Shown: positions 23,362-37,363 of the stretch, piece by piece | Layout: each line of letters starts with the position of its first letter | Position numbering within the stretch: position 1 is the first letter of the stretch | Assembly: GCA_031292215.1 (NCBI GenBank) | Contig: JARLHO010000160.1 | Location: 1-37,553, forward strand | Source: Syntrophobacteraceae bacterium | GTDB lineage: Bacteria; Desulfobacterota; Syntrophobacteria; Syntrophobacterales; Syntrophobacteraceae | Direction of reading: 5' to 3' | Length of the DNA: 37,553 nucleotides | Translations under genes and position numbers: made by a program | Notes under the pieces: generated by a model | What the model was told of the DNA's origin: nothing | Database searches by the model: none | Seen by the model: only the letters and a program-made list of their open reading frames with translations

Positions 23362-24669
23362 CTAGTCGATGAAGTTCTTAAGACAGGCCTGCCTGTTGGG
23401 GTTTTGGAGCTTTCGGAGCGCCTTTTTTTCGATCTGGCGTATCCTTTCCTTGGACACATGGAAAAGTTTACCAATTTTTTCAAGGGTTTCAGCCGGCTGT
23501 CCATCAAGTCCAAATCGTAGCCGCAGGATTTTTTCCTCTCTTGGCTGCAACGTGGAAAGAAGAGTCCTCGTAACTTCGGCCAGCTCCCGGTCCGAACATT
23601 CATCGGCAGGGGAAAGGGCTTTTTCGTCTTCGATAAAATCTCCCAGCCGCTGTTCATCTTCGCCGATGGGAGTTTCAAGGGATATGGGCTGCGCGGCAAG
23701 GGTCAGGACCATCTGGACCTTTTCCACGGGCAGCTTGGATCTCTCGGCAATTTCTGCGGCCGTGGGTTCCCGCCCCAGTTCCTTTAGCAGTTCGTAGTAG
23801 ACCTTGAAAAAAAGGTTCTTTAGTTCGATAAAATGGACAGGGAGCCGGATCGTCCTGGTTTTGTCGTAAATACCGCGAATGATGCTCTGCCTTACCCACC
23901 AGGTGGCATAGGTGCTAAACCGGTTGCCCTTGGTGTGGTCAAAGCGGCCGACGGCTTTTAGCAGCCCCAGGTTTCCTTCCTGGATCAGGTCGTCAAAGGT
24001 CATGCCGCGGCCTCTGTAGCGCTTGGCTATACTCAAAACCAGCCGGAGATTGGCCCGGACCATTTCCTGCTTAGCGGTGTCCACCGCCCTCATTATCGCC
24101 TTGACCCTGTGCAGCGCGGCCGGGAAAAGCGGGTTTGCCGGATGGTCGGAAACGGCCCGCTCCAGAGTGCGCACGATTACCTTAAGGACCTTGTCTCTCA
24201 CACCGGGAAAGGTTTTCTCGTGCTCCAGGAGTTTTTTGACCTTATCGCTAAGATCGGCCATTATCCGGTGATCGTCCGTATGATCCTGTACTATCTGGAC
24301 GAGTTCGTCCTGGCCTTGCCTGATGATCTGGGCAAGCTCGGTTTCGCGCTCCTGGGTGAGCAGAGGATAGCTCGACACCTCTTTTAGGTAACAGGTGATG
24401 TGGTCTTCATCGAAGTCTTCTACGGCAACCGCAGCAGTTTCGGCCTCGCCCTGCTCTTCCTCTTCATCCACTTCCATTTCGGCCAACTCGGGTATAACGG
24501 CTTCTTCGTCCGTACTTCTCCGGTCGGGATGGTCCAGGTCCAACTCGGACCTTTGAAAACGGCCCTCTATTGCTCGCCCACGGAGCAGGCTTTCAAAGTC
24601 TTCTTCCGAATCGGGCTTTTTCAAATAATAATCTAGCGGAAGGCACTTTTCAGAGCCGTAAGATTTCAT
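23362..24669 (-). CDS. Sigma-70 family RNA polymerase sigma factor (group 2, RpoS/RpoD-like)
   Basis: A 435-residue sigma factor. An acidic N-terminus (about 50-85, EVDEEEEQGEAE) precedes region 1.2 (ITCYLKEVSSYPLLTQERE). Region 2 is complete: MVRANLRLVLSIAKRYRGRG, FDDLIQEGNLGLLKAVGRFD, FSTYATWWVRQSI. Region 3 follows (LGREPTAAEIAERSKL) and region 4 ends in a helix-turn-helix (ETLEKIGKLFHVSKERIRQIEKKALRKLQ). It lacks region 1.1 and the long non-conserved insert of the housekeeping RpoD (about 600 residues), so it is probably an alternative, RpoS-like general-stress or stationary-phase factor. AAGGAG lies 6 bases before the ATG. A promoter candidate sits at 24800-24828. Confidence 0.88.
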   Translation of the reverse strand: MKSYGSEKCLPLDYYLKKPDSEEDFESLLRGRAIEGRFQRSELDLDHPDRRSTDEEAVIPELAEMEVDEEEEQGEAETAAVAVEDFDEDHITCYLKEVSSYPLLTQERETELAQIIRQGQDELVQIVQDHTDDHRIMADLSDKVKKLLEHEKTFPGVRDKVLKVIVRTLERAVSDHPANPLFPAALHRVKAIMRAVDTAKQEMVRANLRLVLSIAKRYRGRGMTFDDLIQEGNLGLLKAVGRFDHTKGNRFSTYATWWVRQSIIRGIYDKTRTIRLPVHFIELKNLFFKVYYELLKELGREPTAAEIAERSKLPVEKVQMVLTLAAQPISLETPIGEDEQRLGDFIEDEKALSPADECSDRELAEVTRTLLSTLQPREEKILRLRFGLDGQPAETLEKIGKLFHVSKERIRQIEKKALRKLQNPNRQACLKNFID

Positions 24670-25181
24670 TTTTTTCTCCTTTGCGGCAGCCGGAAAAAAC
24701 TACCGGTCTCTGCTGCCACACCCCCCAACAGTATGCAAAATACCAGCCATTCCTCCAGCACGAGCTTACACTACTGGCGAGACGACTTCAATAATAAATA
24801 AGTTAAGATATTTAAAGCGCTTAGTCAATAACCGGCAATCGGTCTTTGATGGGTTGCGCTTGGCTCCACCCATCCTTGTATCTTAAGAATTGGACGGAGT
24901 TTTATCCGTGCTATGCGAAAAGACTTGAAATCCCCCCAACCCCCCTTTGAAAGAAAGGGGGGCGATTGAGCCAACCCGCGTCTGAAATAAAGGGGGCGAT
25001 TGGGCCTTGCCCCCATTCGGCGACATGGGGGGCTGTGGCGGCCGTCCGGCGTCGGAAAGAAACCAAAGGTTGCCACTACGGCCCGCTGTCTTTTTTAAAA
25101 GAGCCGGATTAAACCTTGAACTCCCACCGGAATTGGATATAAAGTAAATCATCCGTTTGAGTACAATCAAGGAGTGGTGAA
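24670..25181. other. Intergenic region with solo C-run/G-run repeat
   Basis: Contains the leader of the sigma factor gene (24670-24830) and, at about 24930-25030, a solo copy of the sequence AAATCCCCCCAACCCCCC followed by GAAAGAAAGG and GGGGCGATTG. This module is also found inside both MITE-like elements, but here there are no MITE ends. No gene is seen before 25182. Confidence 0.5.
24800..24828 (-). promoter_or_regulatory. Candidate sigma-70 promoter of the sigma factor gene
   Basis: On the minus strand TTGACT (24828-24823), a 17-base spacer and TAACTT (24805-24800). It lies 130 bases upstream of the start codon, implying a long 5' leader. Confidence 0.4.
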
Positions 25182-25349
25182 TTGCTTTGCAAAAAATGCA
25201 ACAAAGAAGTCGAAATAGTAAAAAAATGACGCACGGCTCACCTGCGCTGCCGGGAATGTGGCGCGACCTATACCTTGCTTGATTATATCGATGAACTCAG
25301 CGACGAGCTGGAAAAGGAGCTATCCCATTGCCGGGTGGACCGGATTTGA
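25182..25349 (+). CDS. Dual-CXXC small selenoprotein candidate (in-frame TGA = Sec16)
   Basis: A 55-residue protein if TGA at 25227-25229 is read as selenocysteine. The frame starts at TTG 25182 with a perfect AAGGAG 7 bases upstream. The product has CKKC (residues 3-6), selenocysteine at 16, CREC followed by G (23-26), then an acidic helix YIDELSDELEKEL and ends VDRI. This layout is that of the known dual-CXXC small (seleno)protein family of deltaproteobacteria, in which the position 7 residues before the second CXXC is Cys or Sec. A SECIS-like hairpin follows the TGA at 25245-25265. Without readthrough the product would be 15 residues. Role unknown; metal or redox binding is likely. It is convergent with alaS. 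Confidence 0.72.
25245..25265 (+). promoter_or_regulatory. Bacterial SECIS-like hairpin
   Basis: CGC, a bulged T and GCC pair with GGC and GCG around the loop GGGAATGT. The bulged T is 19 bases and the loop G's 23-25 bases after the TGA, close to the bulged U17 and loop G23 used by SelB in E. coli fdhF. The pairing was done by eye. Confidence 0.55.
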
Positions 25350-25378
25350 GATAGCCTTTTAGAAACCTCTACGAGCTT

Positions 25379-28039
25379 TCACGCAAGCTTTTCACGGATC
25401 AATTTTTCGGCCAGGCGGAGGGCGTCCTCTATTCTTTCGGGCCTGTTGCCGCCGGCTTGAGCCATATCGGGCCTCCCGCCGCCGGAGCCTCCCACCTCTT
25501 TTACGATCTCCTTTATAAGGTTTCCGGCGTGCAGCCTGCCGGAAATCTCACCGCAGACCACGACGAGCAAATAGACCTTTGCGCCTGCAACCGCGCCGAG
25601 GACAGCCACGCCCTTGGCAAATTTTTCTTTGAACTTATCGCTTACTTCCCGAAGCGCCTTGGGGTCCTCGGCGTCGATTCGAGAAACGAGGACCGTTGCG
25701 CCCCCGACTTCTACGGCCTGGTCAAACAGATCGGCGGAGCGTCTGCCGGCGGCGGAGGCTTTCAGGGCCTCGATTTCCTTTTCCAAAAGCCTTAGCTGGG
25801 CGAGGATTTTTTCGACCCGTTCGCCAACTTCAAGGGGTGGGGCCTTTAGCGCGACAGCGGCACGGTTAAGGGTTTGCCTCTGCCGGTTTATGTATTCGAC
25901 CGCATGTCTTCCGGCCAGAGCTTCGATCCTTCGCACTCCTGCGGCTATTCCGGTTTCCTGCACTATGACAAATAGCCCCAGGTCGCCTGTGGCCCGGGTG
26001 TGGGTGCCGCCGCAAAGCTCGTGGCTAAAGCCGGGAATCTCAACCATGCGGACGCGCTCGCCGTATTTTTCCTCAAAAAGGGCCATGGCGCCGGTCTTAA
26101 GGGCCTCCTCGATGTCCATCACCCGGACGCTTAGCCGGCCGTTTTGACGGATTTGATCGTTTGCCAGTTGCTCGACACTGGCCAGTTGCTCGGGGGTCAT
26201 GGCGGAAAAGTGTGAGAAATCAAACCGGAGACGGTCGGGGGCGACAAGTGAGCCCGCCTGCTTCACGTGATCTCCGAGCACCTTTCGCAACACGGCGTGC
26301 AGGATATGGGTCGCGGTGTGATGAATTTCTGTGTCTTTTCGTAGCGCCTCATCTACGGCCAAGTGGACCGTATCTCCCACGCGTACGGCTCCGGCTTCAA
26401 CGTTTCCGGTGTGAACGATGAGGTTTCCGGGGAGCTTGAGGGTATCGGTTACGGTAATTTTTGCACCCGCTCCGGTGATAGAGCCCCTGTCGCCCGCCTG
26501 GCCGCCGCCCGCGCCGTAAAACGGGGTGGCCGCAGTGATCAGTTGCACCTCCATAGCCTCGGAGGCAGAACCGATTTCTTCCCCACCGCTTATCATGGCG
26601 ATTACCGTGGAATCGGCCCGGGTCGTTTCATAGCCGAGAAATTCGGTGGATAGGCCTTTTGAGCAAATGCGGCGAAGGGCTTCGGAAATTTCGCGGTCTC
26701 CGGATCCTTTCCAGGCCGCGCGGGAAAGCTCCCGCTGCTTTTCCATGAAATCATGAAACCCTGCCTCATCGACCTCCAAGCCCGATTCCCTGGACATATC
26801 GGTAATGATGTCGATCGGAAACCCATACGTATCGTAGAGCTTGAAGATGAGAGAGCCGGGAATTACGCGGGCTTTTTCGTCGGTTAGCCGCTTTATTTCG
26901 GTTTGAAGCAGCCTCAACCCGTTATCGAGGGTTTCATTGAAACGCTCTTCTTCGTTTTGGATAACGCGGGTTATGAAGCTGCGGTTTTCGAGCAGTTCGG
27001 GATAGGCGTCCTGCATGGATTCCATGACCGATTCGGCGACCTTGGACAAAAACGGCTGGTCCAGGCCGAGGAAGCGCCCGTGGCGCAGGGCTCGCCGTAT
27101 TACGCGCCTTAGCACGTAGCCGCGCCCTTCGTTGCTTGGCAGAGCGCCGTCTCCGATAAGAAAAGCGGCCGCGCGGCTGTGATCGGCAATGACCTTAAAA
27201 GATACGTCCTTTTCGGGCGCGGCCCCGTACTTGTGGCCGCTCAGCTCTTCGATGCGGGCCATCATCGGGGCAAAAAGGTCGGTGTCGTAGTTTGAGGGAA
27301 CCTTTTGCAGCACGGCGGCGACTCTTTCGAGCCCCATTCCGGTGTCGATGCTCGGCTTGGGGAGAGGGGTAAGAGCGCCTTGCGCAGAGCGGTTAAACTG
27401 CATGAACACCAGGTTCCACAGTTCCAGATAGCGGTCGCAGTCGCACCCCGGCCGGCAGTCGGGCCTGCCGCATCCGATGGCGGGCCCCTGGTCGATAAGT
27501 ATCTCGGAGCACGGTCCGCAGGGACCGGTATCGCCCATCGACCAGAAATTGTCCTTTGTCGGAAAAGCCAAAATCCGCTCCTGGGGAAGATATCTTGCCC
27601 AGAACCCGCGCGCTTCTTCGTCGGCGCCAAGCTCCATTGGCCGGTCGCCTTCGTGGATCGTGGCATAGAGCTTGTCTTTGGGCAGAGCCAGCTCTTCGGT
27701 CAAAAACTCCCATGCGAACCGGATCGCATCCTCTTTGAAGTAATCGCCGAAGGAAAAATTTCCGAGCATTTCAAAAAAGGTATGGTGGCGGGCCGTACGG
27801 CCGACGTTTTCCAGGTCGTTGTGTTTGCCGCCCGCCCGCATACATTTCTGGCTGGTGGTGGCGCGCGAATAACGACGTTTTTCTTCGCCCAGAAAAGTCC
27901 TCTTAAACTGCACCATGCCCGCGTTGGTAAAAAGCAAAGTGGGGTCGTCGTGGGGAATTACCGAAGAACTCTTTGCAATCGTATGACCGCGCTTTTTGAA
28001 AAACTCAAGAAACGCCTGCCGGATCTGACTGGCTTTCAT
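25379..28039 (-). CDS. alaS: Alanyl-tRNA synthetase
   Basis: An 886-residue class II aminoacyl-tRNA synthetase that charges tRNA-Ala. The N-terminal catalytic domain begins SQIRQAFLEFFKKRGHTIAKSSSVIP, with the motif 2 region GKHNDLENVGRTARHHTFFEMLGNFSFGDYF. A Cys-rich zinc-like stretch is seen at GCGRPDCRPGCDCDRY. The editing domain carries HHTATHILH and CGGTHTRATGDLG, the four zinc ligands that clear mischarged Ser/Gly. A C-terminal C-Ala domain ends with GGSGGGRPDMAQAGG. Length is normal (E. coli 876). GGGAGA precedes the ATG. It lies 118 bases downstream of recA, a frequent recA-alaS order in proteobacteria, and a promoter candidate lies in the gap. Confidence 0.97.
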   Translation of the reverse strand: MKASQIRQAFLEFFKKRGHTIAKSSSVIPHDDPTLLFTNAGMVQFKRTFLGEEKRRYSRATTSQKCMRAGGKHNDLENVGRTARHHTFFEMLGNFSFGDYFKEDAIRFAWEFLTEELALPKDKLYATIHEGDRPMELGADEEARGFWARYLPQERILAFPTKDNFWSMGDTGPCGPCSEILIDQGPAIGCGRPDCRPGCDCDRYLELWNLVFMQFNRSAQGALTPLPKPSIDTGMGLERVAAVLQKVPSNYDTDLFAPMMARIEELSGHKYGAAPEKDVSFKVIADHSRAAAFLIGDGALPSNEGRGYVLRRVIRRALRHGRFLGLDQPFLSKVAESVMESMQDAYPELLENRSFITRVIQNEEERFNETLDNGLRLLQTEIKRLTDEKARVIPGSLIFKLYDTYGFPIDIITDMSRESGLEVDEAGFHDFMEKQRELSRAAWKGSGDREISEALRRICSKGLSTEFLGYETTRADSTVIAMISGGEEIGSASEAMEVQLITAATPFYGAGGGQAGDRGSITGAGAKITVTDTLKLPGNLIVHTGNVEAGAVRVGDTVHLAVDEALRKDTEIHHTATHILHAVLRKVLGDHVKQAGSLVAPDRLRFDFSHFSAMTPEQLASVEQLANDQIRQNGRLSVRVMDIEEALKTGAMALFEEKYGERVRMVEIPGFSHELCGGTHTRATGDLGLFVIVQETGIAAGVRRIEALAGRHAVEYINRQRQTLNRAAVALKAPPLEVGERVEKILAQLRLLEKEIEALKASAAGRRSADLFDQAVEVGGATVLVSRIDAEDPKALREVSDKFKEKFAKGVAVLGAVAGAKVYLLVVVCGEISGRLHAGNLIKEIVKEVGGSGGGRPDMAQAGGNRPERIEDALRLAEKLIREKLA

Positions 28040-32276: not shown

Positions 32277-32364
32277 GGAGGGATGGCCGAGTGGTTTAAG
32301 GCGGCGGTCTTGAAAACCGTTGTTCCTAGCGGAACCGTGGGTTCGAATCCTACTCCCTCCGCCA
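32277..32364 (+). tRNA. tRNA-Ser (anticodon TGA)
   Basis: 88 bases with encoded CCA. The acceptor stem GGAGGGA pairs with TCCCTCC, the discriminator is G, the anticodon TGA is at 32311-32313 in loop CTTGAAA, the T-loop is GTTCGAATC, and the long variable arm is characteristic of serine tRNAs. Confidence 0.95.
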
Positions 32365-32378
32365 GTTAAGGGTATTAA

Positions 32379-32472
32379 GGAGAGATGGCCGAGTCGGCTG
32401 AAGGCGCTCGCCTGCTAAGCGAGTGTAGGGGGTAAACCTCTACCGAGGGTTCGAATCCCTCTCTCTCCGCCA
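32379..32472 (+). tRNA. tRNA-Ser (anticodon GCT)
   Basis: 94 bases with encoded CCA. The acceptor stem GGAGAGA pairs with TCTCTCC, the discriminator is G, the anticodon GCT is at 32414-32416, the T-loop is GTTCGAATC, and a long variable arm is present. It lies 14 bases after tRNA-Ser(TGA), probably in the same transcript. Its 3' end faces a phage-type gene, so it may be the integration target. Confidence 0.95.
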
Positions 32473-32578: not shown

Positions 32579-35500
32579 TTACTTCTTCTTCCGCGCCCCA
32601 AGCACCAAATCATGTACAAACCCCGCGACGTCCTCCGGGTTTTGGTCCCCGTTCCAAACATCCCATAAATATTGTGCGCTTTGATCCGCCTGACCTAAGG
32701 GCAACCCAAACGAATAGCCCGCCGTGTCGAGAGCGTGGCGCATAAATTTCGAAGCGGATACGTCTTCTCCATCCCACCATTTTTCCGTATCGTGCACGGT
32801 ATGCATAAAGGCGGAACCCACATCCGAAAGGGGCGTAATCCGATACTCATGCCCTTGAAACGCGTTTGAAATGTCCCGGATGAAAGGCAGCCCACTAAAT
32901 AGCCCGGAGCCTATTTCCTTGGCGGCCCAATTGAACCAACCCTCATCGTCGCTCGGTCTCTGTCCTTTTATCAGCGCGTGCAGCATGGTAGGCATCACGA
33001 AATACCACCAACTCCTAGCCAGGACTGCCGCAAAATCCCCCGCATTTCCCTCCCTTAGGGCCGTAACACCGCGCCGAGCAATATCGACCTGCCGATTATA
33101 AAAGTGATTCCAAAATGTGTAGAACATTGTAAACGGCTTCATGAATTCCACGTTCTGCACAGCCGCTATATCTTCCGGGTTTCCCGACCCGTGGGCATTC
33201 CTGACCGCCTTGTCGGCATAATAAATTGCATCCGCTTCCACCTTCATCCCAAGTCCACCGTTCACCTCAGGGGCGAGAGCCTTACCATATGCCCCCAGCC
33301 ATGTGGGCCATGCGCTCCCCATGTCAAGCATCGCAATTCCGTGAAAGGCAAAACGCCTTGCGCCTTCGAAAATGCTTTTCCTCCCCAAGGTCTTTTTCAT
33401 GGCTTCCCGGATGTTGTAATCGACCGTATTCATCCGGTGGGCCATCTCGGACGACCTTTCATTGATGAAGTCACGCATTCTCGCCATTTTCTCAGGCGGG
33501 CCGTAGAAATCTTTGAAGCCTTCGACGGTCCACTTCGTTCCGATTTCGCCGATGGAGTTGGAAAGGGCCGTTGCGCCGTGGACCAACATCGTGCTTGCCC
33601 GGTAGCCAAGTCCCATCATTGTTACGTTCAGCCGAAAACCTCGCGCGGCCCTTTCCCACCACTCATTCCCTGTCCGATCATAACTTACGTCCCCTACGGT
33701 TCGTTTGAGCATCGGGATGAGTTGCTTATAAAAATTCTCGCCCAAGGTAGTGTTGATCGTGTCCCGGATGGCCTCATTTTTAATGAGGCGGCAAAGATCG
33801 GAAATCGTCTCTCTCCAGGCAAGATCACGGATAACATCGTCAAAGTGTTGTGGAATGACATCCAACGAAAACCTTATCGGCCTCGCATACCTTTCGGCCC
33901 TCGACATCTTGTGACCGCCGTAAGTCACAGGCCTGCCGGCACGTCCCTGATCATCCATTAGAGCCTTATCCGAAAGAAATCTTTCATAGGCATCCCCGGA
34001 CCTCGATGGATCATAGGCCATCGGATAGTATCCGCCCCGATACTCCCCGTAAGGTGTAATGACAGGAGATGTCTCTATCCATTCCGGTTCGATTCCAGTC
34101 ATACGCAAACTCTGCTCTTTAACATCGGGCCTCAACCGCTCCATGAGATCCCAAACCCCTTGAACAAAATCCCAATCGGCCTTGGTCCCAAGGCGGTCGA
34201 ACACCGCCTGCACGGTCTCCGGTCTCCAACCCTCGCCCCGGCACAGTTTGCTCTTGTTGCTCTCGTTTCCCCAATTGAGCATCATCGAGAGGAGTTCGCC
34301 CCTCGATATCCGGAGCGGTTCCCCTGTTTTGCTATCGATCAACTCCTTTATGTCGGGCAACATTTCATCGAGTCGATTCGAACTCTCCTTGGAATAGACT
34401 TTCCCGAGGTCCTCCATCCCCTGGCTCATCTCGTCCATCCGTTTATCGAAGTAGGCGCGTGAATCCTTGATGCGTCGCCAAATCGCCCGGTTCCATATGC
34501 CGTTTGAATCCCCGCCGTCAAACCGGTCTATCATTTCTTGTTCGAGCCTTGATAAAGAGGCATGCAATCCCCCGAAAAGATCTTGTGCTTTCACCCAACG
34601 CGCTTTCTGCCTTTGCTCGAAATCCCCCTGCACAACCCCGGGATTCCTTTCGCGCGAGAGTTCTTTGCGCTCTACATTCTCGTTGGCGCTCCGCATCATC
34701 TCTTCGGCGATCTCCGCCTCGCCGACTTTTTTCCCGCCAACCAATATCTTTTTCATGTCCCGACCGACATGGGCAATCGACTTTACCGCATCGCTCAAAT
34801 CCCTTATCTGAGAGACGGTCATGTCCTTGTAGCGCGGCGGCAGATTCGGATCGAAAAGCGAATCGGGGACATAGACATCCCCGTAATCCGCGCGAACCTT
34901 CGCGACCCAATTAGATAGTATTTCCCGTTCCCGCAAGTCGGCGCCAGGAGTCTTGAGCCCGAATCTTTCCAATAGCGTGTGGATTTGGTCGAGCGCCCCC
35001 TGATCCAGGCTAGCAATCATGCGCTTTTTGCCAAACCTGTCCGCCTGATCCTCTAGGCCCTCCAAACTCTCACTCGCCTTCCGCGCCTCCACATAAAGGG
35101 CATGGCTCAAAATCTGCTGGCGCTTAGCCTCGATCGCACCCGCGAAATCGCCTTTAACCATGGCCTGCTCGGCCGCCGTCGCCGCCCTTCTCTCATCCGT
35201 TGCGTACCGGTTAAGATTGGTCACTTCCCAAATTTTACGATCTCCGATGGTATCCCGCGCCCAGGCCTTAGGATCCAGGGTCCCCCCGAAAATATGCAGA
35301 CGATCCGCCCCCCGCTGCTGTCCACTAAGTCTAATGAGCGCTCGAAGCTCTGTCGCCAGGGCCTGCGCTTCGGCATCATTATGCACCGCGTCCATTGCCG
35401 CCTGCGGCATGGTCCCATCGGTTGTCATGTCGCCGAAATGGGCTTTAAGGCGTGCATCCAGGGCATCGTCAACCAAATGCTGTCTATACCCCTCCTCGCT

Positions 35501-37363
35501 CGCGACTCCCATCCCCTTTGCGTCCAGGCCGCGCCTATCGGCCTCGATGGCCAGGAGATCGCTAAGCATTTCCGAGCCCGACCGATAACCGAACATTTCG
35601 CCCAAATCCAGGGGATCAAAGCCGCCTTCCTTCTTATAGAGCCCGAAAGGCAGATTCTTTAACCCGTCTTCGCCGATCAACCTCACAACCGCATCCCGGT
35701 TCATCCGAACCGGCGCCCGGTTCTCCCCGGTATCTTCTTCACCGAGAAGCCGCCCCCGCCTCAGATAATGGAGGGCCTGCACGTCCCTCTTCGCGTTAAT
35801 CTCGCTCTCGACCTCCGGGCGAAGCCGCTCCTTTTCCTTTTCCCACTCCTCGGATTTTTCCCGCTCCAACTGCGCCATGGCCTTCCTTTGGACCGTCGCC
35901 CGCGCCTCGTCTACAGCCTTTCCCACAGACCCGATGTAGGCCTTCCATTCAGCCGAGGTCATTCCGGCGTCTTTCGCGGTCTTAAACAACCTGCCCAACC
36001 GCTGTTGCTGCCTGGTGATATCGATTTGCTCATCGGTGGCAAGCATCCGATCCATGACCCCTCGCACCCCAGGCGACACCTCGATCGGTGTCCCTGCAAC
36101 CTGAGAGAGACCGGCGAACGCTCTCCCTCGCCCGGTCACGCGCTCGTAAATCCTTTTCAGCCAGGCCCTGAAAGAGTCGAACACCGGCTGCAGCCCCGGA
36201 CTGGGGGCTTTACCTTCCATCAAATACGCCTCGAAGGTCCGGGCGAACAATTCGTGAAGAGGGGTCATAAGCGACATGCGAACGTCCCCGCGGTCCATGT
36301 CGCGCCCAAGATGGCCGGCGAAGTCCTTGAAAAATTCCACCCCCGATTCACTGCTCTCCCCCAGCAACTTCGCCGCGCTCCTGTAGGCCGCGACCCGCGC
36401 CCACGCCTGCTCGTCTCCGGGACTTGCCTTTACTGCGGCTTCCGCACCCTTTCTAGCCTGTTGGAATTGGCCGTGCATATCCTCGGCGTGATCGGCCCAC
36501 CATTTTTGCAGCGTTCCGAGATCCGACTTCGCCCGCTCCGAGCCCTCCGGGTGATACGCGTCATGACTAAGCCGCTCAAGAAACAAATGGGCTGCCTCAT
36601 GGAGGAAACTCGACCGATCCTTTACCGCGAAAATATTCATGACATGGGGTCCGGTTCCAAACCCCCCGGGCGGAAGCTGGAGTGTAGCGTTTGCGCCCAT
36701 GCGCTCGCGTATCTTGGCAAGCCTTTCATCGGGCGCCGATTTTGTCAGTTCCTTGAAAATTTCCTGCTCTTTTTCGAGCAACCGTCGATGCCATTCCTCG
36801 GGAGAAAGGCCCAACTCCTGCCCGGTCCACTGCTTTTGCTCCTCGATATAATCGTCTAGAAATTGTTTCTTACCCTTCGCCTTTTGCAGATCCTGGATAA
36901 GAGCGTCGGTCGTCTCATACCCGTGATCTTTCGCGAGCTCATCAATTGTGGTCTTGGCGTCATTTCTGAAAAGCCCCGGGTACTTTCGAACAAGGGGGGT
37001 AATTACCGCCTCTTGGTCTTGGTCGCTCAAACTCTTCCGGCTGATTCCGCCTTCTTTAACAGCGTCCAATACCCTCGACGTCGTAAGCTCGTCGTAGAGC
37101 TGCGCACCCTGATCCCTCAGCTGCTTTTCGGAAATGCGGACCTGCCTGCCGTGCTCTTTTTCCACCTGCGCCCAGGCCCGCCGGGCGGCTTCCCGCTGGA
37201 GATCGTCGTATTCGTGGATATGCTCCAGGGGAATCGGGTGCTCGGGGAGGGTTTCGGAAGTTGGGATGGAGCGGGAAGCCCGTTTTTGTTCGTAAAACGG
37301 CTTGACAATATCTGCCTCGGTAGCTATTTTATCCTTACCGCCGCTGTACATCTCCTTGGGCAA
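32579..37363 (-). CDS. Giant phage-type polyvalent / internal virion protein, possibly 5'-truncated
   Basis: A protein of at least 1594 residues. Residues 1-230 are helical and charged. A metallopeptidase-like motif HEAAHLFLERL (HExxH at 255-259) follows, in a context (SSFLHEAAHLF) familiar from large polyvalent phage proteins. Long coiled-coil stretches lie at about 440-560 (e.g. AQLEREKSEEWEKEKERL). The last ~350 residues (GYRASTMLVHGATALSNSIGE, EFMKPFTMFYTFWNHFYNRQ, ARSWWYFVMPTMLHALIKG) resemble the LPD38-type domain of phage large polyvalent proteins, thought to be injected with DNA or to be virion-internal. The stop lies 16 bases from the tandem repeats next to tRNA-Ser, suggesting the edge of an integrated prophage. 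The start is TTG at 37363 with weak support; the frame continues upstream to 37474. Confidence 0.75.
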   Translation of the reverse strand: MPKEMYSGGKDKIATEADIVKPFYEQKRASRSIPTSETLPEHPIPLEHIHEYDDLQREAARRAWAQVEKEHGRQVRISEKQLRDQGAQLYDELTTSRVLDAVKEGGISRKSLSDQDQEAVITPLVRKYPGLFRNDAKTTIDELAKDHGYETTDALIQDLQKAKGKKQFLDDYIEEQKQWTGQELGLSPEEWHRRLLEKEQEIFKELTKSAPDERLAKIRERMGANATLQLPPGGFGTGPHVMNIFAVKDRSSFLHEAAHLFLERLSHDAYHPEGSERAKSDLGTLQKWWADHAEDMHGQFQQARKGAEAAVKASPGDEQAWARVAAYRSAAKLLGESSESGVEFFKDFAGHLGRDMDRGDVRMSLMTPLHELFARTFEAYLMEGKAPSPGLQPVFDSFRAWLKRIYERVTGRGRAFAGLSQVAGTPIEVSPGVRGVMDRMLATDEQIDITRQQQRLGRLFKTAKDAGMTSAEWKAYIGSVGKAVDEARATVQRKAMAQLEREKSEEWEKEKERLRPEVESEINAKRDVQALHYLRRGRLLGEEDTGENRAPVRMNRDAVVRLIGEDGLKNLPFGLYKKEGGFDPLDLGEMFGYRSGSEMLSDLLAIEADRRGLDAKGMGVASEEGYRQHLVDDALDARLKAHFGDMTTDGTMPQAAMDAVHNDAEAQALATELRALIRLSGQQRGADRLHIFGGTLDPKAWARDTIGDRKIWEVTNLNRYATDERRAATAAEQAMVKGDFAGAIEAKRQQILSHALYVEARKASESLEGLEDQADRFGKKRMIASLDQGALDQIHTLLERFGLKTPGADLREREILSNWVAKVRADYGDVYVPDSLFDPNLPPRYKDMTVSQIRDLSDAVKSIAHVGRDMKKILVGGKKVGEAEIAEEMMRSANENVERKELSRERNPGVVQGDFEQRQKARWVKAQDLFGGLHASLSRLEQEMIDRFDGGDSNGIWNRAIWRRIKDSRAYFDKRMDEMSQGMEDLGKVYSKESSNRLDEMLPDIKELIDSKTGEPLRISRGELLSMMLNWGNESNKSKLCRGEGWRPETVQAVFDRLGTKADWDFVQGVWDLMERLRPDVKEQSLRMTGIEPEWIETSPVITPYGEYRGGYYPMAYDPSRSGDAYERFLSDKALMDDQGRAGRPVTYGGHKMSRAERYARPIRFSLDVIPQHFDDVIRDLAWRETISDLCRLIKNEAIRDTINTTLGENFYKQLIPMLKRTVGDVSYDRTGNEWWERAARGFRLNVTMMGLGYRASTMLVHGATALSNSIGEIGTKWTVEGFKDFYGPPEKMARMRDFINERSSEMAHRMNTVDYNIREAMKKTLGRKSIFEGARRFAFHGIAMLDMGSAWPTWLGAYGKALAPEVNGGLGMKVEADAIYYADKAVRNAHGSGNPEDIAAVQNVEFMKPFTMFYTFWNHFYNRQVDIARRGVTALREGNAGDFAAVLARSWWYFVMPTMLHALIKGQRPSDDEGWFNWAAKEIGSGLFSGLPFIRDISNAFQGHEYRITPLSDVGSAFMHTVHDTEKWWDGEDVSASKFMRHALDTAGYSFGLPLGQADQSAQYLWDVWNGDQNPEDVAGFVHDLVLGARKKK

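Follow-up and report, generated by a model that had tools for sequence, protein, structure and literature searches.

The protein family closest to the gene described here is represented by the NCBIfam model NF041197, "dual CXXC motif small (seleno)protein". A 2026 review, which cites Zhang and Gladyshev 2007, names it "Dual CXXC motif small protein (hypothetical protein OS_HP3)", gives its motif as RxU, and places a second entry, "Hypothetical protein DW" with a GxU motif, under the same model (PMC13188914). OS_HP3 is also found in the list of a 2022 review (PMC9312934), while a 2025 paper reports that deep-Sep overlooked it in one genome (PMC12013277). Among the matches listed by our literature search we found no functional study of the NF041197/OS_HP3 family.

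We analysed a stretch of 37,553 nucleotides from a Syntrophobacteraceae bacterium (the window), in which a frame on the + strand at 25182-25349 translates as MLCKKCNKEVEIVKK-U-RTAHLRCRECGATYTLLDYIDELSDELEKELSHCRVDRI-stop. With U written as C, this protein matches NF041197.2 over model positions 1-53 of 53 (58.1 bits against a cut-off of 40, E = 7e-16). A six-frame search of the whole genome in which stops are read through recovers it with one internal TGA, again above the cut-off (49.1 bits, E = 3.3e-12), as the sole NF041197 match in that genome (no second match at E <= 0.001). The match above the cut-off shows that the family named in the preliminary description of this DNA was the right one. 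No Pfam model and no other NCBIfam model reaches its cut-off for this protein, and the sub-threshold Pfam matches are mostly to zinc ribbons or zinc fingers.

Compared with OS_HP3, we found no difference of substance: the match is likewise full-length, there are two CXXC motifs with the Sec between them, and a basic residue lies two positions before the Sec (RxU in the review, PMC13188914, and KKU in the window). We are highly confident that a genuine selenoprotein gene, belonging to the NF041197 family, lies at 25182-25349; this confidence covers the gene and its family, and the redox role is graded separately below. The gene thus adds one further species to a known and already catalogued selenoprotein family, which is itself not new. 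Its features, all on the + strand, are as follows:

25169..25174, Shine-Dalgarno AAGGAG with a 7-nt spacer to the TTG start (read from the sequence)
25182..25349, probable selenoprotein gene of 55 codons, Sec at codon 16, terminal TGA (NF041197.2 match above cut-off)
25182-25184, TTG start codon (read from the sequence)
25188..25199, first CXXC (C3-K-K-C6), putative zinc ligands (cysteines invariant in the 64-sequence alignment A1)
25227..25229, in-frame TGA, codon 16, very probably read as Sec (Sec/Cys column across the family)
25243..25265, putative SECIS hairpin of 8 pairs with the 7-nt loop CGGGAAT, lower-energy register (consensus folds of relatives)
25248..25259, second CXXC (C23-R-E-C26, then G), putative zinc ligands (cysteines invariant in A1)
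25329..25331, Cys50, C-terminal, candidate partner of Sec16 (invariant in the 13-sequence near set A3)
25347-25349, terminal stop, the second TGA of the frame (read from the sequence)

Hence the gene layout first proposed stands: the TTG start follows AAGGAG at good spacing, and CKKC, the TGA at 25227, CREC-G and an acidic C-terminal part are each found in the sequence, with Sec16 seven residues before the second CXXC. The translation signals are conserved among the near loci: AGGAG precedes the start in 14 of the 15 examined (it is absent in L038), and the start-position codon is TTG in 13, ATG in one and GTG in one. Downstream of the UGA, pN/pS is only moderately low (pN 0.16-0.28, pS 0.24-0.46). 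The earlier expectation that standard gene callers would miss the gene applies to callers that lack a selenoprotein model, but NCBI's own family model scores it above cut-off and the family is already in print.

Codon 16 among the relatives and the selenocysteine machinery

In the class, 45 of 55 genomes contain a match to the family (42 above cut-off), and all 47 matches hold one TGA. A sample of the phylum, in which up to 16 candidates per genome were scored, gave matches in 112 of 395 genomes (88 above cut-off); these were fetched in part, and the ratio of Sec to Cys forms among them is no survey. The close relatives with names come from metagenome-assembled Syntrophobacteraceae, other deltaproteobacteria and Desulforhabdus sp. 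TSK. We used 115 loci, the window included, of which 113 were placed by the spacing of their CXXC motifs. The two left out (L106 and L107) have the U, with CXC where the first CXXC would be. Nineteen named loci that overlap other genomes of the sample were excluded from all counts, and one further TGA copy (G020 C73) is not among the fetched loci.

Position 16 of the 113 aligned sequences is occupied by TGA in 85, TGC in 21 and TGT in 7, and never by another stop or by Trp; these are counts of sequences, not of independent events, and cover the window as well as the typical and GxU groups described below. Together with C3, C6, C23 and C26, U/C16 makes up the invariant columns of A1. These data bear directly on the reading that the UGA is an ordinary stop, leaving a 15-codon peptide or a decayed gene whose downstream frame is a relic. 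Read mechanically, translation does end at 25229, and folding the single RNA sequence gives no SECIS signal. However, the residues past the UGA are conserved across dozens of genomes, the site holds Cys in 28 sequences, TGA is the only stop ever seen at this codon (85 of the 113), and the genome keeps all four genes for selenocysteine. The comparative data strongly disfavour an ordinary stop, and we consider it very improbable.

A second, lower-scoring group of relatives has an invariant G14 (GxU) in its 19 aligned members, which often lie in the same genomes as typical forms. It comprises 21 fetched loci (L085-L087, L089-L105 and L108), with UGA in 19 and Cys in two (L104 and L105), and the genomes of the latter two contain, in addition, a typical-group copy with UGA. 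This group shares the CXXC-U-CXXC layout and the NCBIfam model with protein DW, and its GxU motif, taken by itself, fits an identification with that protein; it differs from the typical forms in having GxU in place of the [RK]xU of most of them and in its tail.

The genome of the window encodes strong matches to selA (614.4 bits, cut-off 267.9), selB (361.9 bits, cut-off 242.25) and selD (384.1 bits, cut-off 125), as well as a tRNA-Sec (selC; 74 bits against a gathering score of 47, and called tRNA-SeC by ARAGORN). Judged by its gene content, this organism should therefore be able to make selenocysteine. The preliminary description had named in advance two checks on the interpretation as a selenoprotein, namely homologs with Cys or Sec at position 16 and the presence of selA, selB, selC and selD; the former holds in 113 of 113 sequences, window included, the latter in full, and both lend the interpretation support. 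SelD is itself often a selenoprotein. The selD of this genome (L011, G000 C53 68230-72144) carries its own in-frame TGA in the context AGUAAK, and is a selenoprotein gene too.

Across the class, a strong selB is found in 51 of the 55 genomes. The four that lack one are G001 (68% complete), G003 (83%), G046 (97%) and G051 (99%), and all four have selA. In G051 there is one partial selB match (134-580) that extends to the C-terminal end of the model and is probably a cut-off selB. G046 has a TGA form of the gene and nothing that can be recognised as selB: the matches left to the selB model cover the N-terminal GTPase part only and may be other translation GTPases. Of the genomes with Cys forms, ten were searched for selA alone and all ten have it; Cys thus replaces Sec in genomes that probably continue to make Sec.

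The hairpin downstream of the UGA

It had been proposed at the outset that a SECIS-like hairpin follows the UGA, with a bulged T at +19 and loop G's at +23 to +25. The published rule for bacterial SECIS elements specifies a loop of 3-9 nt, a stem of 4-16 bp, a minimum free energy (MFE) <= -7.5 kcal/mol, a G in the first two loop positions and a distance of 16-37 nt from the UGA (PMC13188914). In its lower-energy register, which pairs 25243-25250 with 25258-25265, the hairpin of the window falls within this rule (8-pair stem, loop CGGGAAT 21 nt from the UGA, -10.2 kcal/mol). The 45 nt from the terminal TGA onward fold at -6.3 kcal/mol and miss its energy limit (PMC13188914). An overlapping alternative register (-9.5 kcal/mol) has the bulged T at +19 (25248) and the G's at +23 to +25, so that the arrangement first described is a possible one, but the other register is lower in energy.

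While decoding, the ribosome covers the bases next to the UGA. The fold at -10.2 kcal/mol was obtained with the first 9-15 nt from the UGA onward omitted. On the 44 nt of 25227-25270, RNAfold returns another structure as the MFE (-11.9 kcal/mol, z = +0.77), and 160 of 200 shuffled sequences are at least as stable. The proposed hairpin can form (at -9.5) and is seen in alignments, but is not the MFE structure of this segment. With z-scores of +0.77 and +0.55, single-sequence folding was rejected as proof of a SECIS; it provides no evidence, and hence the case rests on the comparison of relatives.

Such a comparison yields an 8-pair consensus hairpin, which begins with the 14th base past the UGA, at -12.3 kcal/mol in nine members of the genus and -13.2 kcal/mol in 23 members of the family. 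In 300 synonymous redraws of the 9- and 23-member sets, energies as low as these never occurred, a result that overstates the significance because such redraws lose the relatedness of the sequences. Sliding windows and groups of Cys forms, which keep that relatedness, agree with the hairpin. Along the same genes, a comparable consensus fold is found nowhere except shortly past the UGA. The genus set, unlike the family set, also has two weaker folds ahead of the main one (-3.0 and -4.1, the latter the next best). Two groups of Cys forms (n = 11, mean identity 0.73; n = 12, mean identity 0.62), whose members resemble one another more closely than do the Sec forms outside the class, show no fold at the hairpin site. 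The 23 Sec forms outside the class, with a mean identity of 0.53, have a consensus hairpin at the same place (-6.0), as do, with weaker energies than the genus and family sets, the 43 class forms (-5.7) and all 66 typical forms (-5.1).

The conservation of base pairs, measured against 500 synonymous redraws, points the same way. In the 43 class Sec forms (GxU copies removed) pairing is 0.731 versus 0.623 +/- 0.019 in the redraws (highest 0.681), and sliding the tested pairs out of register yields 0.18 to 0.60; for the full set of 66 typical Sec forms the value is 0.639 versus 0.558 +/- 0.015 (highest 0.602). In the 28 Cys forms the corresponding values are 0.311 and 0.309. All six tested pairs of the bulged-U register are kept together in only 7 of the 43 class relatives (redraw mean 0.9, highest 4). 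All 43 of the 43 class forms have a G within the first two positions of the loop. The bulge T is also invariant in all 43, which says little because a Cys codon opens with this T.

Two further measures were tried and rejected. A loose bSECIS rule (13-37 nt to the loop instead of 16-37, with stem length left out), applied to the MFE folds of 51 nt, passes 82 of 85 Sec forms and 13 of 28 Cys forms; redrawn Sec forms also pass it (mean 57.4 of 85, highest 66), and hence the rule by itself discriminates poorly. Judged by energy z-scores relative to synonymous redraws, the Sec forms (mean -0.68) are not set apart from the Cys forms (mean -0.57), the window standing at +0.57. In the GxU Sec forms (n = 19) pairing is 0.383 versus 0.426, and the consensus energy at the hairpin site is 0.0. 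Thus, the SECIS of the family is not uniform, the hairpin being limited to the typical forms, in which these alignments indicate that it is conserved beyond coding needs.

This pattern also bears on whether the UGA might be read without SelB as another amino acid, Trp or one inserted by a near-cognate tRNA. A frame that stays open under another code does not alone prove Sec. Yet the homologues have Cys and never Trp at position 16, the hairpin is conserved in the typical UGA forms and not in the Cys forms, and the Sec machinery is present in the genome; we give such SelB-free read-through hardly any credence. On the preferred reading, that of a selenoprotein, translation would begin at the TTG at 25182, a SelB-tRNA-Sec complex recruited by the hairpin 25243-25265 would insert selenocysteine at the UGA of codon 16, and termination would occur at the TGA at 25347. 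Both expression and the actual insertion of Sec are predicted here from sequence.

Genomic neighbourhood

The selenoprotein gene stands alone at its locus. Upstream, on the opposite strand, lies a gene for a sigma-70 family factor (23362-24669); downstream are alaS, in convergent orientation (25379-28039), and then recA. Across the 115 clustered loci, alaS is downstream and convergent in 23, a sigma factor gene is upstream in 9 and a GTPase-like gene adjoins 17, while a putative pyrE (assigned from sequence by eye rather than by profile scan) is upstream of 8 Cys forms. No general operon or partner gene of the family emerged among these loci, and no neighbour points to a function. A scan of 24660-25420 found no sigma-70 promoter. 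Six short peptide patterns revealed no close viral relative, and no plasmid version of the gene was found at E <= 1e-5.

Several other features of the window were observed. An inverted repeat with C-rich and G-rich arms lies at 24930-25040 (CCCCCCTTTGAAAGAAAGGGGGG). A related palindrome pattern, CCCCCCTTTNNNAAAGGGGGG, occurs with up to 2 mismatches at 156 places in the genome versus 2 for the reversed pattern, and is a dispersed repeat in this genome; read by eye, the window's copy differs from the pattern by 3 mismatches. The segment 14624-20853 encodes a weak PEP-CTERM protein, an export protein, a chain-length determinant, an AAA protein and a tyrosine autokinase-like protein, and is probably a PEP-CTERM/exopolysaccharide cluster, the PEP-CTERM domain being its sole NCBIfam match above cut-off. 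Two tRNA-Ser genes with the anticodons TGA and GCT stand in tandem at 32277-32472. A frame of 1594 codons with a TTG start on the - strand (32579-37363) matches nothing in Pfam (E <= 1e-5) or NCBIfam (E <= 0.01) and is free of tandem repeats; either the gene is divergent or the long frame is spurious.

Predicted fold and possible roles of Sec16

A structure model of modest confidence (mean pLDDT 72.5, pTM 0.48) has strands at residues 9-15 and 18-23, with residue 16 at the turn between them, and helices at 32-39 and 43-47 predicted with lower confidence. Foldseek matches zinc ribbons weakly (best E 0.15), and structure comparison is likewise weak (best Z 3.8, rmsd 3.3 over 49 residues); a search of PDB folds gave no match with E <= 0.001. 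The weak matches include zinc ribbons of RNA polymerase subunits, translation factors, PriA, NrdR and others. With zinc ribbons of the Rpb9/TFIIS-like, eIF2-beta, FmdB and HypA types the protein has in common two CXXC knuckles around a beta-hairpin, the latter predicted here by the model, but no Pfam or NCBIfam model of theirs reaches its cut-off here. Apart from the FmdB-family selenoprotein, we know of no Sec in these zinc ribbons. That FmdB-family selenoprotein is listed in the 2022 review (PMC9312934).

The product probably folds as a small zinc ribbon in which Cys3, Cys6, Cys23 and Cys26 would hold the metal ion, the Sec would sit where the beta-hairpin linking the two CXXC motifs turns, and an acidic tail with helices would end near a Cys; the placement of the Sec in three dimensions is suggested by a single model of modest confidence. 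In this tail, 52 of the 66 typical Sec forms have a Cys within their last eight residues, which makes the C-terminal Cys a candidate partner of Sec16; a Cys stands at position 50 in 27 of the 66 and at position 52 in 24. There is no Cys after the second CXXC in 14 of the 66 typical Sec forms and in 10 of 25 distinct Cys forms; hence, a resolving Cys at the C-terminus cannot be general or essential throughout the family.

We lean towards a role as a small redox protein of the thiol/selenol type: Sec16 would be the reactive residue, and either the C-terminal Cys or another thiol would resolve it. That only Cys substitutes for Sec argues for thiol/selenol chemistry. A real, if less probable, alternative is that the protein is a selenoprotein whose Sec16 serves as a metal ligand or as a structural or regulatory contact rather than as a redox catalyst, as might be pictured for a zinc-ribbon adaptor of, for example, the transcription or translation machinery. 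Consistent with this, the Sec lies outside any CxxC/CxxU pair, and the weak fold matches include the ribbons of RNA polymerase, translation factors, PriA and NrdR. However, similarities this weak do not imply a partner, zinc ribbons are a very common fold, and the replacement of Sec by Cys alone is what would be expected of thiol/selenol chemistry. The small share of probability left over falls to neither of these roles.

A more specific form of the redox role, which we regard as rather unlikely, is a self-contained selenol switch on a zinc ribbon, with a Sec16 exposed at the hairpin tip that bonds reversibly with the C-terminal Cys. If true, the redox state would decide the docking of the ribbon on a partner, and Sec would be employed in a manner that differs from the CxxU redox motifs. 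As the oversight of OS_HP3 by deep-Sep illustrates (PMC12013277), members of this family can escape detection tools; the comparative data supply a concrete location for the SECIS and an unusual position of the Sec, which make the function of the family easier to test.
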